A stretch of DNA of 64,000 nucleotides from an uncultured Ignavibacteriota bacterium (GTDB taxonomy: Bacteria; Bacteroidota; Ignavibacteria; Palsa-1295): NCBI GenBank assembly GCA_903900335.1, contig CAIUMP010000030.1:72068-136067 (forward strand), written 5' to 3'. This document shows positions 37,099-42,495 of the stretch, piece by piece; position 1 is the stretch's first letter; each line of letters starts with the position of its first letter. The translations under genes and the position numbers were made by a program. The notes under the pieces are model-generated. The model did not search any database. It worked only from the letters and a program-made list of their open reading frames with translations, and was not told where the DNA came from.

Positions 37099-37897
37099 CG
37101 ACTCTGGCTCCACCAAAAAATCAGAGCCATAGGTGCCACCGAGGTGTGGCGAACGCTGACCCGTCGGTAAATGCCACAGCAAATTCTGCACTGCCATCCG
37201 TTCGGCAGAAACGCCCATTCGGCGAATACGCCCAATAGTGAGGAGTCAGGTAGCTAGTACATATTCCATGCGCCAAAGAGCATGCCGCATACGCGAATGA
37301 CAAGGTATTCGAACTCGGCGCCCTAGAGCATAGGTCGCCAATGTATCTTCGTCAGTGCGATAGCGCAACTTTCTTCCTGTTAACTAGACCCGTGATAGTC
37401 TGGTACCCATGGGCATAGTTTGGCTAAGTTATTGGCACTATGAGAAGTTCGCAACAAGCGGATCTTCGAAGCGATGCGTCGGCAAGGACTACGGTGCGAT
37501 AGCTGGCGAGGCGATTTGGTCGGGTGTCGGTTACGTATCGGGGATTCCAACAACGCTCCGGGACCTGCGGCATTACTGCCCCTACCGCTCCCCACCCGCA
37601 GAATTTGCTTCCTCAACCTAGAAGTCACGATTTTCCTCTCCTAAGTAACCAAAGGCCCCCAATGTTGCATCTTTGGCGGAGCTTCCATCTCTCCGGGGAA
37701 GTGGCTCCCAGCGCCTGGCGTAAAGTAATCGTATACCCCGTAAACTTCTTTTGCACCCCAAAACCGGACTTTTTTCTCCGATTTTTGAAATCGGACTTGA
37801 TTCGCCTTATTTCAAAAATGGCATATTGATTCCATGCTCGAATCCATGAAAATTGAATCACGCAATAAGGCGTATCATCCGCATCCAAGTTCATACT
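37099..37897. other. Long intergenic region upstream of nosZ
   Basis: About 800 bases. Short open frames here have no signal peptide or family resemblance and are rejected. A weak inverted repeat (TGGCTC...GAGCCA, about 37109-37133) follows the regulator gene. The only distinctive structure is the set of palindromes at 37778-37820 described separately, which lies 80-120 bases before the nosZ start. Confidence 0.45.
37778..37820. promoter_or_regulatory. Palindromic candidate operator upstream of nosZ
   Basis: TCCGATTT-TTG-AAATCGGA (37778-37796) is a perfect eight-base inverted repeat around a three-base centre. The inner ATTTTTGAAAT (37782-37792) recurs as its exact reverse complement ATTTCAAAAAT (37810-37820), 17 bases further on. 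A near-copy of the right flank (CCGGACTTTT) also precedes it. Dyads of this size fit a dimeric regulator; nos promoters are often controlled by CRP/FNR-family proteins, but the half-site here is not the classical TTGAT...ATCAA. Confidence 0.5.
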
Positions 37898-39928
37898 ATG
37901 TTCTTGAATATGAAAACCACTCTACTCCCCAAATCTAATCGAGGAAGAATCGTCCTGGGTCTCGCGCTTCTGGCAGGCCTCATTCTCACACCAATCCTGA
38001 TCTCAAGCTGCCAGAAGGGCGGCGGAAGCAATCTTCAAACAATCGCCTCCGCGCGCGGACTGACACCCGAAGAGATGGAAGGCGCCATGCGCACCTTCGT
38101 CCCGCCCGGCAAACGCGATGAATACTACATGTTTGCGTCCGGCGGACACTCCGGGCAAATCCACGTCATCGGCGTGCCCTCGATGCGTTTGCTCAAGACG
38201 ATCCCCGTCTTCTCGAACGATGCGTGGCAGGGCTACGGACTCGGCACGACGGAATCGGCAAATCTCTTCAAATCCGGCAGCGAAGGAGAGGATGTCGAAC
38301 TGCATTGGGGCGATTCCCATCATCCGGCTATCAGCAAGACGGATGGCGATTATGATGGTAAGGCCCTCTATATTAACGATCGCGCGAATGGCCGCATCGC
38401 AATGGTCGATCTTCGTGATTTCAAGACCAAGCAAATTCTGAAGATCCCAAACATTCAAACCTCCCACGGCGGCGTGTTCCTGACGCAGAATTCCGAGTAC
38501 GCACACGTCTCCGCAATGCAGCCGAAGGCGAATGCCTTCAGCGATCATCCGATGCCCGTAACGCTTAAGGATCATCTTGAGAATTACAAAGACATCTATC
38601 GCGGCGTATCGAGCTTCATCAAGATCAATAAGGAAGACATGCATCTGGATTTCACGAAGAGCTTCCAGATCGAGCTGCCGCCTTACACGCAGGATCTCGC
38701 CAGCGCAGGCAAAGGTCCGAGCGATGGTTGGATGTTCATCAACAGCTACAATACCGAGATGGCGACAGGCGGCGCGGCATACGGCAAGCCCACCATCGAA
38801 GTTGGTGCATCGAAGAATGACTTCGACTATCTTCACGTCATTGACTGGAAGAAGGCTGAAGCGCTCGCGCTCGCTGGTAAAGGCGAGATGCACAATGGCA
38901 TTCGCGTCCTACCGATGACGCTCGCCATCTCCGAACATATTCTGTACCTCGTTCCAGAACCACGCTCGCCGCATGGTGTCGATGTGTCTCCTGATGGCAA
39001 CTACATCGTTGTTGCTGGTAAGCTCGATCCGCACGTTACCGTCTTCGGAATGGACCTCATCAAGAAGGCGATCGAAGCGAAGAACTTCGAGAAGACGGAC
39101 ATCTACGGAATCCCAGTGCTCAATTACAAAGCGTGCGTTGCAGGACAAGTTGAACTTGGCGCTGGGCCGCTTCACACACAGTTCGATGCCGATGGCAATG
39201 GTTATACGAGTCTCTTCTTAGAGAACGCAATTGCGAAGTGGAGCCTGCCAACAGACAAGAGACCAGCGAAGGATGCATTCAAAGTTCTCGACAAGGTAAC
39301 AACGCATTACAACATCGGTCACCTTTCGACGGCACACGGTGATACGCGTCATCCGCAAGGCAAGTACATGGTTGCGATGAACAAGTGGTCGATCGATCGC
39401 TTCGGCCCGCTTGGAACGCTGCTCCCGCAGAACTTCCAACTCATCGACATCTCTGGTGAAAAGATGAAACTCGTCGCCGATATGCCTATCGGATTTGCCG
39501 AGCCTCATTATGCAGAGATGATCAACGTGAACGTGCTCAAACCGATACAGGTCTATCCTATCGGTACCGATCCGATCACGATGAAGCCGTCGCCGTTCGG
39601 TATCAAGACTGCGAAGGAAGCGCGCATCGAGCGCCACGGCAATGTGGTTGATATCTATATGGGTGTCATCCGCAGTTCATTCTCACCGGATATTGTGGAA
39701 GTCCACAAAGGCGATCACGTCCGCTTCCATATTACAAACGTGGAGCAGACGGTCGATGCCTCGCACGGCTTCGCAATACCGGAGTACAACATCATGTGTA
39801 GCCTCGATGCCGGCGAAACGGAGAACGTGGAGTTCGTTGCGAATCGCGTTGGCTCCTTCAGTTACTACTGTACCGAGTTCTGCTCCGCGCTCCATCTGGA
39901 GATGCAGGGGTGGCTGCTTGTGAACTGA
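37898..39928 (+). CDS. nosZ: Nitrous oxide reductase, clade II (Sec-dependent)
   Basis: NosZ reduces N2O to N2 at a copper-sulfur cluster (CuZ), fed by a binuclear CuA site. The ATG at 37898 gives a Sec-type signal without a twin-arginine motif, ending ILISS-C (Cys38), a plausible lipobox, so the enzyme may be lipid-anchored. ATG 37910 is an alternative. The seven-bladed propeller contains the CuZ region (HWGDSHHPAISKTDGDYDG; later TSHGG, SPHGVDVSPDG, GPLHTQFD, NIGHLSTAHGD). The C-terminal cupredoxin domain has the CuA motif CTEFCSALHLEM preceded by a His in SHGF. Length (676) fits clade II enzymes. It heads a nos gene cluster on the same strand. Confidence 0.96.
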   Translation: MFLNMKTTLLPKSNRGRIVLGLALLAGLILTPILISSCQKGGGSNLQTIASARGLTPEEMEGAMRTFVPPGKRDEYYMFASGGHSGQIHVIGVPSMRLLKTIPVFSNDAWQGYGLGTTESANLFKSGSEGEDVELHWGDSHHPAISKTDGDYDGKALYINDRANGRIAMVDLRDFKTKQILKIPNIQTSHGGVFLTQNSEYAHVSAMQPKANAFSDHPMPVTLKDHLENYKDIYRGVSSFIKINKEDMHLDFTKSFQIELPPYTQDLASAGKGPSDGWMFINSYNTEMATGGAAYGKPTIEVGASKNDFDYLHVIDWKKAEALALAGKGEMHNGIRVLPMTLAISEHILYLVPEPRSPHGVDVSPDGNYIVVAGKLDPHVTVFGMDLIKKAIEAKNFEKTDIYGIPVLNYKACVAGQVELGAGPLHTQFDADGNGYTSLFLENAIAKWSLPTDKRPAKDAFKVLDKVTTHYNIGHLSTAHGDTRHPQGKYMVAMNKWSIDRFGPLGTLLPQNFQLIDISGEKMKLVADMPIGFAEPHYAEMINVNVLKPIQVYPIGTDPITMKPSPFGIKTAKEARIERHGNVVDIYMGVIRSSFSPDIVEVHKGDHVRFHITNVEQTVDASHGFAIPEYNIMCSLDAGETENVEFVANRVGSFSYYCTEFCSALHLEMQGWLLVN

Positions 39929-39930
39929 GT

Positions 39931-40082
39931 ATTGAGTAACGAGTAACGAGTGATGAGTAATATGCAGAAGCCAACCTGGCAAGCCACACGAGCAGTGAGA
40001 AATTCCATTCTCCCGACTCGTTACTCGTTACCCGTTACTCGTTACCTCCTCCTCGTTACCCGTTTCTCGTTACTCATCACTC
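39931..40082. repeat. Inverted array of GTAACGAGT-type repeats spanning the nosL start
   Basis: The left arm (39931-39960) is made of GAGTAACGAGTAACGAGTG-type repeats; the right arm (40016-40082) is made of their complement (ACTCGTTACTCGTTAC and variants, about eight copies). Perfect matches include 16 bases (39936-39951 with 40016-40031) and 13 bases (39948-39960 with 40070-40082). The nosL ATG (39953-39955) lies in the left arm, and the right arm encodes most of the nosL signal peptide (PTRYSLPVTRYLLLVTRFSL). Confidence 0.8.
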
Positions 40083-40480
40083 TCCTGAGTTGCAGTGCCG
40101 GCAAGCCGGAGCCGCCAAAGATCATCGCCGATCGCTCATCGTGCAGCTTCTGCAAGATGCTCATCAGCGACACACGATATGCCGGAGCTCTGAACAACGG
40201 CCAGGAGGCCCTTTACGACGACCTCGGCTGCATGTTCAGTGCTGTCAGCAAAATGAAGAGCGAACCCGAATACCTCTGGGTTCGCGACTACAACACCAAC
40301 GTCTGGCTCGATGCGCGCGCCGCAGTCTTCGTCTATGCGCCGAAGCTCGGAACACCGATGAACTACGGTTACGTCGCCGTTCGTGATGCCTCCGAGGCCG
40401 CGCAGCTTGCCGGACATATTGATGGTCGCGTCATTGGAGATTGGAATGCCGTCGTCACGTTTTTTAAGGAGAAGGTATAG
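39953..40480 (+). CDS. nosL: NosL copper chaperone lipoprotein
   Basis: NosL binds Cu(I) and delivers it for assembly of the NosZ copper centre with NosDFY. The 175-residue product has a signal peptide ending ITLLS-C (Cys47), and the metal-binding CSFCKM motif appears shortly after (DRSSCSFCKMLISD), followed by the usual DDLGCM element. Start candidates are GTG 39950, ATG 39953 and ATG 39962; all lie in or beside a repeat array. The signal peptide is itself a repeat product: TRYSLP-VTRYLLL-VTRFSLL. It is 22 bases after nosZ and 2 bases before the nosD fusion. Confidence 0.92.
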   Translation: MSNMQKPTWQATRAVRNSILPTRYSLPVTRYLLLVTRFSLLITLLSCSAGKPEPPKIIADRSSCSFCKMLISDTRYAGALNNGQEALYDDLGCMFSAVSKMKSEPEYLWVRDYNTNVWLDARAAVFVYAPKLGTPMNYGYVAVRDASEAAQLAGHIDGRVIGDWNAVVTFFKEKV

Positions 40481-40482
40481 TT

Positions 40483-42495
40483 ATGAGCTGGTTTAAGGAG
40501 TATCCGAAACGTCACCTGGTTCAATGGGTCGGTGCAGCTTTGCTACTTGCACTAATTGCATGGCTATCCTATTGGGGAGAGAACGCTCCACTTTGGGAGA
40601 TGCACATGAAGGCGCCGCAGTATCCCGCCGGTCTTGTGCTTATCGCGTACGGAGATCGAGTCGAGGGAAATGTCATGGAGATCAATCTCCTCAATCAATA
40701 TATCGGCATGAAGAGCATTGATCCGAAAGAGATCAAAGTAATGGTTCTGTGCCCGTACGCAGTTGGGACGATCGTGTTCTTCGGTCTGCTTGCCTTTGCA
40801 TTCCCGAAGTTTCGCTGGCTGTTCTCCGTCATGGCAATGGCGGTTCCCTTGGGGATATTGGTCGTCATTCAGTATTACCTCTATCATTTCGGTCACACGC
40901 TCGACCCTGAACAGAATCTCTTGCGGATAGAGCCGTTCACTCCTTATGTGATCGGACCAACATCGATCAAGCAATTCAACACCATGTCCGTGCCTGGTAT
41001 GGGATTTTGGCTATTGATGTTGGCTTCCGTCCTGATCGGTTTTGGCAATAGGCTCGCGCGTAGCATCGTACATGGTATTAATCCATTCAACTTCAAGCGA
41101 GCGGTCATCACTGCCTCCGTGGTGCTCGCACTATTCCCGATCACGCGAGCCAACGCTCAGTCGCTTCGCGATCTTCAACCCATGATCGACGCCGCAGCGC
41201 CGGGGACTGTCCTCGTCATTCCGCAAGGGACGTATCGTGGGCCGATCACGATCACCAAGCCACTAACCCTTCGTGGCGAAGGCAAGCCGGAGATTCGTGG
41301 TAACGGGCAAGGCAGCGTTGTGACGATCAACACAAACGATGTGACAATAGATGGCTTCCTCATCCGGCTGAGTGGCAAAGAAGTATCCGAGGAAGCTGCT
41401 GGCGTTTCGTGCGAGGGAAGCAATATCACGCTCCGCAACAGTGAAGTGCGTGATGTGTTTTTCGGGATGCACATTGCAAGCGGAAATAATATCACCGTCT
41501 TGCACAACGAGATCCATCCCGGTGTAAGTTACGGTGGACGCGCAGGACATGGCATTGATATCTGGAACGTCGAAGGCATAACGGTTCGCGGCAATTACAT
41601 TCACGATGCACGCGACGGGGTGATTCTCTCCTACGCCGCAAAAGTTGTTGTCGATTCCAACCATGTCACCAATTGTCGCTATGGTTTGCACTCCATGTTC
41701 TCGAAGAATCTCGCCTTCACCTGCAACTACGTTCACGACAATCTCCTCGGCGTTGCGCTGATGTACACAGACACGATGCTCGCCGAAGGCAACATCGTCA
41801 CGAGCCACAAGACCGGCGCAACCCCGTTTGGCTTCCTGCTGAAGGATCTGAACAACCTCACGATGCGGCACAATACGATCACCTGTAATCGTGTCGGTAT
41901 CTATGCCGATGGTCTGTCGATGCAAGTTGGCAGTTCATCGCTTATTTCGGAAAACACACTCGCCGGAAATGAGCGCGGCGTCTCCGCGATGAGCAATGCG
42001 ACGTTCACGTTCGCGGGTAACAACGTTCTGGATAATCTCACGGATGTCTATAACGAAGGCGAGCACACTGCGCCGGGTGTGCGATGGTCGAACGCACAAG
42101 GCGGCAACTTCTGGAGCGAGTATCACGGCTTCGACAAGACCGGCGATGGCACAGGTGATCTCGCTTATCGAGAAGAGAATACAACAGAGTCCATTCTCAA
42201 TACATCGAATCCTGCGCGAGCATTTATCTACACGCCAGCGCATCTTGTGCTCGAAGCTGCGCTCCGCATGTTTCCATTATTCAAGAGCGCGCCTGTTGTA
42301 GATGATGCAAGGCCGAAAATGCAGCCCGCCGCGCTGGGCTGGACAACAAACGTTCTTGAACCGCGCTCGGTAACAACGTCGCTCATATCCACCCTCCTCG
42401 TCTGCCTCGGAATGTGGACGCTCTGGCGTTGGAGACCTTTCTCCGCAAGTCGCATAGACATCCCCCGTCATCGAACTTCTATCCCCGCCTTATGA
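40483..42495 (+). CDS. nosD: Membrane domain fused to NosD copper-site maturation protein
   Basis: The 670-residue protein has two parts. Residues 1-205 are an integral membrane domain: hydrophobic segments near 11-30, 86-108, 112-138 and 176-192, with a soluble loop MKAPQYPAGLVLIAYGDRVEG...NQYIGM. From about 207 a second signal-like segment (AVITASVVLALFPITRANAQ) leads into NosD: CASH-type parallel beta-helix repeats (LVIPQGTYRGPITITKPLTL, ITVRGNYIHDARDG, HGIDIWN) to about residue 600, then a C-terminal hydrophobic segment near 630-653. NosD works with the NosFY transporter to supply NosZ maturation in the periplasm. The N-terminal part may correspond to the stand-alone membrane protein NosB of clade II clusters; that identification is tentative. 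Confidence 0.88.
   Translation: MSWFKEYPKRHLVQWVGAALLLALIAWLSYWGENAPLWEMHMKAPQYPAGLVLIAYGDRVEGNVMEINLLNQYIGMKSIDPKEIKVMVLCPYAVGTIVFFGLLAFAFPKFRWLFSVMAMAVPLGILVVIQYYLYHFGHTLDPEQNLLRIEPFTPYVIGPTSIKQFNTMSVPGMGFWLLMLASVLIGFGNRLARSIVHGINPFNFKRAVITASVVLALFPITRANAQSLRDLQPMIDAAAPGTVLVIPQGTYRGPITITKPLTLRGEGKPEIRGNGQGSVVTINTNDVTIDGFLIRLSGKEVSEEAAGVSCEGSNITLRNSEVRDVFFGMHIASGNNITVLHNEIHPGVSYGGRAGHGIDIWNVEGITVRGNYIHDARDGVILSYAAKVVVDSNHVTNCRYGLHSMFSKNLAFTCNYVHDNLLGVALMYTDTMLAEGNIVTSHKTGATPFGFLLKDLNNLTMRHNTITCNRVGIYADGLSMQVGSSSLISENTLAGNERGVSAMSNATFTFAGNNVLDNLTDVYNEGEHTAPGVRWSNAQGGNFWSEYHGFDKTGDGTGDLAYREENTTESILNTSNPARAFIYTPAHLVLEAALRMFPLFKSAPVVDDARPKMQPAALGWTTNVLEPRSVTTSLISTLLVCLGMWTLWRWRPFSASRIDIPRHRTSIPAL

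Follow-up and report, generated by a model that had tools for sequence, protein, structure and literature searches.

The junction between nosZ and nosL in the window (the whole stretch of 64,000 nucleotides that was analysed) bears a heptameric, mostly palindromic intergenic repeat whose stop-free arm, read in frame, probably supplies the signal-peptide region of NosL. More generally, short heptameric repeats dispersed in intergenic DNA seem, on several occasions, to have come to encode the N-terminal residues of an adjacent exported protein, among them NosL, the protein that delivers copper; repeat DNA would in these cases have turned into export labels. The origin of signal peptides, which change rapidly in evolution, is for the most part unknown; in this case one would be visible directly, as a repeat whose stop-free strand gives a hydrophobic heptapeptide in any frame. 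The preliminary description of this DNA had seen one instance, and the pattern now looks recurrent and genus-wide.

The element at the nosZ-nosL junction

Below, G000 is the genome of this window, G001 a sister species of the same genus and G010 a member of another genus. The features of the junction, in window positions, are the following:

37898..39928, + strand: nosZ (nitrous oxide reductase), from ORF and gene call, with a PF18764 match (E 2.5e-31) and a cupredoxin domain; ATG start as called, the longest ORF running from the TTG at 37853
39926-39928, + strand: nosZ stop codon TGA, touching the left arm
39927..39960, + strand: left arm of GAGTAAC heptamers (GAGTATTGAGTAACGAGTAACGAGTGATGAGTAA), holding TAA stops and one ATGAGTAA unit
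39950..40480, + strand: nosL ORF in its longest form (PF05573, E 8.1e-7)
39953..39955, + strand: candidate nosL start ATG (MSN...) within the left arm, in frame, with an equivalent in G001
GTG39950 and ATG39962, + strand: in-frame start candidates beside ATG39953, ATG39962 lying just beyond the left-arm end
39961..40015, + strand: spacer between the arms
39995..39997, + strand: alternative in-frame start GTG in the spacer, aligned with ATG5705 (MGIR) of G001
40016..40082, + strand: right arm of GTTACTC-type heptamers, stop-free, translated in nosL as TRYSLPVTRYLLLVTRFSLLIT
40091..40093, + strand: putative lipid-attachment Cys codon of NosL (LLS/C), the Cys being aligned in G001 and G010
40483..42495, + strand: nosD, the next nos-cluster gene, with an extra N-terminal membrane segment (PF05048, E 3.7e-30, residues 354-549/670)

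The inverted repeat array proposed earlier for the start of nosL was recovered both in the sequence and by TRF, which reported 3.9 copies of a 7-nt unit at 39934-39960 and 8.6 copies at 40016-40075, the latter agreeing with the roughly eight units said to be read within the gene. Searching the 17-mer GAGTAACGAGTAACGAG with up to three mismatches gave 10 matches in the window, all at the nosL locus, against a shuffle mean of 0.15. The gene is identified as nosL by PF05573 (29.9 bits against a curated cut-off of 24), and its ORF translation includes ...NSILPTRYSLPVTRYLLLVTRFSLLITLLSC. The placement of the nosL ATG in the left arm held in so far as ATG39953 lies there in frame, but GTG39995 offers a further in-frame start in the spacer. 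As a pointer to the true start, the Shine-Dalgarno motif was considered and discarded: its frequency in the examined genes equals the background (11/93 versus 966/8600), so it cannot decide between the nosL starts. Between 39995 and 40157 there is no in-frame ATG, GTG or TTG, and a start at 40157 would cost NosL its CxxC (CxxCxM motif); the right arm must therefore be translated if an intact NosL is to be made. This in-frame, stop-free arm makes up most of the segment where NosL needs a signal peptide, and NosL would be exported by a repeat-encoded, putative signal sequence. As a separate observation on the neighbouring gene, the NosD domain starts only at residue 354 of 670, with a long membrane segment ahead of it, and the G001 ortholog has a similar length (676 aa).

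The signal peptide of G000 is not an ideal one. It fails the core of PROSITE PS51257 (six outer positions before the Cys free of D, E, R and K) because of an Arg at -10 relative to the Cys, whereas NosL of G001, G010 and G004 passes the same pattern; the Lys or Arg that PS51257 expects within the first seven residues is present in G000 under both start choices. In hydropathy, its best 9-residue stretch (2.24) falls below those of G001 (2.61), G010 (2.74) and G004 (3.20). The mature domain keeps the conserved residues when compared with G001 and G010; dN/dS is uninformative for it, since dS is saturated (dN 0.41).

Comparison of nosL N-termini among relatives, which had been suggested as a way to refute the repeat origin, gave a mixed outcome: the close relative G001 has a repeat-derived segment too, and not a conserved non-repeat signal peptide, while an ordinary one without repeat was found in G010. 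The G001 element stands at the same nosZ-nosL junction, its in-frame right arm encoding part of MGIRLLITSSLLLAAFVMGC within the signal peptide, and the ORF may start in the left arm (MSNERAALHKTFRA), where an in-frame ATG lies at L098:5663 (MSNE...). The G001 signal peptide has a normal length and might be a native one grown similar to the repeat. At the nosZ-nosL junction of G010 the plain signal MNTYPAHWLITLLLPIFSIAMGC is found, which makes the repeat dispensable in principle; NosL of G004 likewise has a plain signal, in a different gene neighbourhood. A nosL with a repeat arm was found in only two genomes (G000 and G001), and the shared site indicates that the arrangement is old. Additionally, the NosL homologue scan recovered a single relative, a NosZ from a Chloroflexi MAG; this NosZ is not directly followed by NosL, and the repeat is absent.

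The spacer at 39961..40015 is judged to be mostly native nosL leader, because G000 and G001 share a distance of 42 nt from the left-arm start to the inner one, and because the G001 spacer is partly similar to the repeat-free leader of G010. Reading these junctions together, we infer that the element entered in an ancestor of G000 and G001, where the left arm would have contributed some 47 bp ahead of the native leader and the right arm would have replaced the native hydrophobic core of the signal; the right arm of G000 may later have grown by about 20 codons.

Dispersal and coding rule of the repeat

The search for other genomic copies, which the preliminary description had proposed, confirmed that the repeat is dispersed: the 17-mer, with up to three mismatches allowed, matched at least 189 places in G000, compared to 20 when the pattern was reversed. 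A sequence model of 27 positions, derived from 27 arms (with cut-offs that differ between searches), gave at least 92 matches in G000, 39 in G001, 31 in G002, 24 in G003, 15 in G006 and 9 each in G004 and G007, and the census, which combines pattern and model searches with no more than 150 candidates per genome scored in the first pass, is a lower bound. Near-matches to a 21-mer occurred in only 16 of 396 genomes of the phylum, by far the most in G000, and viral contigs contained one exact match to the repeat. The CAATGAG units of the reversed control are themselves numerous in one further lineage of this phylum (e.g., G387, G280 and G191), indicating that other heptamers have expanded elsewhere.

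The impression of a mobile repeat was thus upheld as regards dispersal but not as regards a transposase. A REP/RAYT origin was examined and rejected, as among six Y1-transposase loci (PF01797 matches) only L137 has an arm nearby, and no arm was found at the remaining five in the sequence examined. Element-adjacent genes common to G000 and G001 include purD-, gyrA-, ftsZ- and hscB-like genes and a lipoprotein gene (named from sequence reading), besides nosL, which suggests that many copies were inherited.

The elements follow a common layout, although arm lengths and spacers differ from one to another. Adjacent arms are ordered left-then-right in 28 pairs and the opposite way in one; the right arm ends a median of 8 nt ahead of the called gene start (n=77), and left arms touch or overlap the stop codon of the upstream gene (n=48). 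Arms lie outside core genes in 126 of 138 cases even though coding sequence makes up 65% of the loci, those of this first family at 3' gene ends present the stop strand in 8 of 8 cases, and most arms are untranslated, the start codon of the following gene coming after the arm. L086, L089 and L090 contain four genes whose products open with M.DIFISYSRKDS and look TIR-like by eye; each is preceded by a repeat arm lying 14-19 nt ahead of its start. Near-pure heptamer arrays of about 18-19 units reach the ends of contigs C25 and C26 (L080:2462-2598 and L082:2285-2417), and the assembly therefore probably breaks at long arrays.

The coding properties follow from the unit length. Since seven is not a multiple of three (remainder 1), the GTTACTC strand gives (VTRYSLL)n, a repeated hydrophobic heptapeptide, with no stop in every frame, while the GAGTAAC strand meets TAA in every frame.

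Could these arrays be neutral clutter, expanded by slippage at gene edges, with a tolerated and functionless nosL extension and a NosL that is exported poorly or not at all? The pure arrays extending to contig ends, the many untranslated arms and the failure of the G000 signal at PS51257 would all fit, but we regard this explanation as unlikely, because mature NosL keeps its conserved residues, element positions persist at orthologous junctions of G000 and G001, and the best 9-mer of the NosL signal (FSLLITLLS) is above the mean of the other arm translations (0.77), with only 1 of 157 higher. The reading of the arm as the NosL signal-peptide region remains the one we favor.

Several known systems resemble this family in part. 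Palindromic elements of Rickettsia are inserted in frame in coding genes, as longer units and at many protein positions, and to our knowledge they are not tied to signal peptides. Cyanobacterial STRR heptamers are heptanucleotide arrays able to form hairpins, located in RNA genes and intergenic DNA, and we know of no case in which they act as export signals. Closer in coding behavior are the TAACTGA heptamer repeats of Beggiatoaceae, cyanobacteria and Bacteroidetes, of which one strand has stops in all frames and the other is open and encodes one heptapeptide; they are mostly intergenic and near start codons, with 24 sets in or overlapping ORFs, one of them at the beginning of a corrinoid ABC permease (MacGregor, 2015; PMC4679880). 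The 7-base units described here share the stop strand, the open strand and the mostly intergenic position near start codons, and the coding rule is therefore not new. However, TAACTGA repeats are direct, with one indirect exception, whereas here inverted arrays are paired and the unit, GAGTAAC, is a different sequence; besides, the portion of that report considered here mentions neither a signal-peptide role nor an empty-site comparison of coding arms. Enterobacterial RU-1 and RU-2 are dispersed, MITE-like repeats that are likewise read in frame; RU-1f loci are rich in transmembrane predictions, and RU-2 in a Yersinia exported protein was the one published precedent found for a repeat-derived signal peptide (Delihas, 2007; PMC2759123). 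These are, however, fixed units of 103-168 bp and not heptamer arrays, with no frame-independent coding, and the part of that work consulted describes no common junction struck by different repeat families. None of the publications searched contains the present repeat or its peptide. What appears new is the frame-independent heptamer, its use across genes and repeat families, and the orthologous junctions with and without the element.

Translated arms in other genes and repeat families

The clearest further case is a MalG-type permease (PF00528) of G000, which starts MSNESILAGGTRWRKVARYSLLVTLALIMLGPFLWM, where ATGAGTAACGAG corresponds to the left arm and RYSLLVT to the right arm; its N-terminus, MSNE...RYSLLVTLALIMLGPFLWM, is a translated arm. 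Empty sites exist in close relatives: at the permease junction of the sister genomes G001, G002, G004, G005 and G006 the genes abut or overlap and the element is absent, so that among the six genomes compared this copy is confined to G000. These empty junctions also bear on whether the likeness to the repeat is a mere coincidence, arising in a native signal peptide with many Leu, Thr and Tyr codons. Two observations lend this idea something: the WLITLLL at the matching place of repeat-free G010, and the permease RY, which G001, G002 and G005 possess natively. With eight near-exact heptamers in nosL, a complementary arm 55 nt away, the excess of matches over the shuffled expectation and five sister permease junctions without the element altogether, such a coincidence is highly improbable; it is already contradicted for G000 and concerns only the exact boundary in G001.

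The same build, with repeat arms translated at the N-terminus, was found in G002 in a VWA protein (MSNEIRHWVRAGILVILLVTHHSLLVTAQP) and in a lipoprotein (MSNEYQVMCRRALLVRNHGCARYSFATMVALVTLIGC). The G001 ortholog of the VWA protein has a different palindrome of AATGATG-like heptamers, whose 36-nt arms are 92% complementary (z -8.1) and which reads in frame as IFILHHSTFII; the VWA junction thus carries different repeat families in two species. This second family is dispersed as well, with 80 matches in G001 and none for the reversed control, a control that is not clean in G003. Among 20 G003 loci of the second family, an arm lies within an apparent signal peptide in three, namely L213 (SSFIIHHSSLPARAQG), L222 (FTIHHSPFIVADARAQ) and L228 (FFIIHHSSFIISPAYAQ); in L213 and L222 the right arm is present and a left arm was undetected. 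Side observations concern related leaders: the second family is often palindromic and also found at gene starts (L197:1458-1561 and G003 loci L213-L232); the G002 lipoprotein has an ortholog in G001 with yet another leader, a weakly palindromic one of AAATACG units (L205:1412-1545, ATTTGTCG..GTCATTCGTCATT) that reads as the signal peptide LAFVVCILSFVIVLAGC; and the G000 VWA junction (L200:1350-1545) has a CATTCCCGCGAAAGCGGGAATCC palindrome in an open frame upstream of the signal peptide.

Translated arms apparently serve as signal-peptide or first transmembrane segments. They were picked by eye from repeat-bearing loci, with gene starts from a simple codon-usage caller, and that they are always in exported proteins is an impression from about eight genes and not a measured rate. 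The HslU-like L183 and the open frames through arms in L104, L117, L130 and L190 were not counted as translated arms, because the start codon follows or overlaps the arm end. Arms within genes may last only if the protein benefits from a hydrophobic N-terminus, and this would explain why the translated arms found so far are in exported or membrane proteins. A broader proposal, which we put forward tentatively and hold to be less probable than the nosL reading itself, is that heptamer palindromes act as portable gene junctions that would provide an upstream stop, a downstream start (ATGAGTAAC) and an any-frame export signal, with signal peptides being repeatedly replaced, even at one junction by different families. 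Orthologous presence and absence within the genus make the recruitment of repeats as export signals countable and testable. Gene callers, too, should allow for short arrays at the beginning of a gene being genuine coding sequence of an exported protein.

Predicted RNA fold of the junction

Both perfect pairings proposed for the mRNA were verified, namely 16/16 bases between 39936-39951 and 40016-40031, and 13/13 between 39948-39960 and 40070-40082; they cross each other, and are therefore alternatives that do not form together in one simple hairpin. A 211-nt RNA of the junction is predicted to fold at -72.1 kcal/mol, compared to -56.6 +/- 4.2 for shuffles (z -3.67; 0/200 shuffles as good). The burial of the start codon was also borne out in the predicted fold, in which ATG39953 has an unpaired probability of 0.00, and GTG39995, largely outside the main stem, is only partly paired (unpaired probability 0.34, and 0.51 for the surrounding 30 nt). 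Such a hairpin would make nosL translation depend on ribosomes finishing nosZ.

Alternatively, the palindrome might have been kept primarily as an RNA switch, because the hairpin buries ATG39953 and couples nosL to nosZ translation, the peptide being a by-product. This model gains from the strong fold, from the arm-arm hairpin predicted at the G001 junction (z -2.05 to -2.81), where the left-arm ATG is buried as well, and from a paired change in one stretch, GTGATGAGT/ACTCATCAC in G000 and GTAATGAGT/ACTCATTAC in G001. Moreover, an arm pairs better with the partner from its own element than with arms from elsewhere (-2.41 versus -0.08 +/- 0.93 kcal; 233/20000 permutations), and since Shine-Dalgarno-like motifs occur no more often than expected at random, initiation may depend more on structure. 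Nevertheless, GTG39995 is a less buried start, repeat-free G010 manages without a hairpin, L213 and L222 have an arm with no hairpin partner, the lowest-energy register in G000 differs from the 13-bp perfect one, and arms would also stay complementary, with no selection acting, if imperfect palindromes are corrected by template switching. We therefore consider it rather improbable that RNA regulation came first, though somewhat less so than neutral expansion, and retain a signal-peptide role of the translated arm as the preferred reading.

Across the junctions compared, those with a repeat folded with z values of -2.8 to -8.8 and those without any repeat folded no better than chance, the VWA junctions of G000 and G003 folding owing to other repeats present there.
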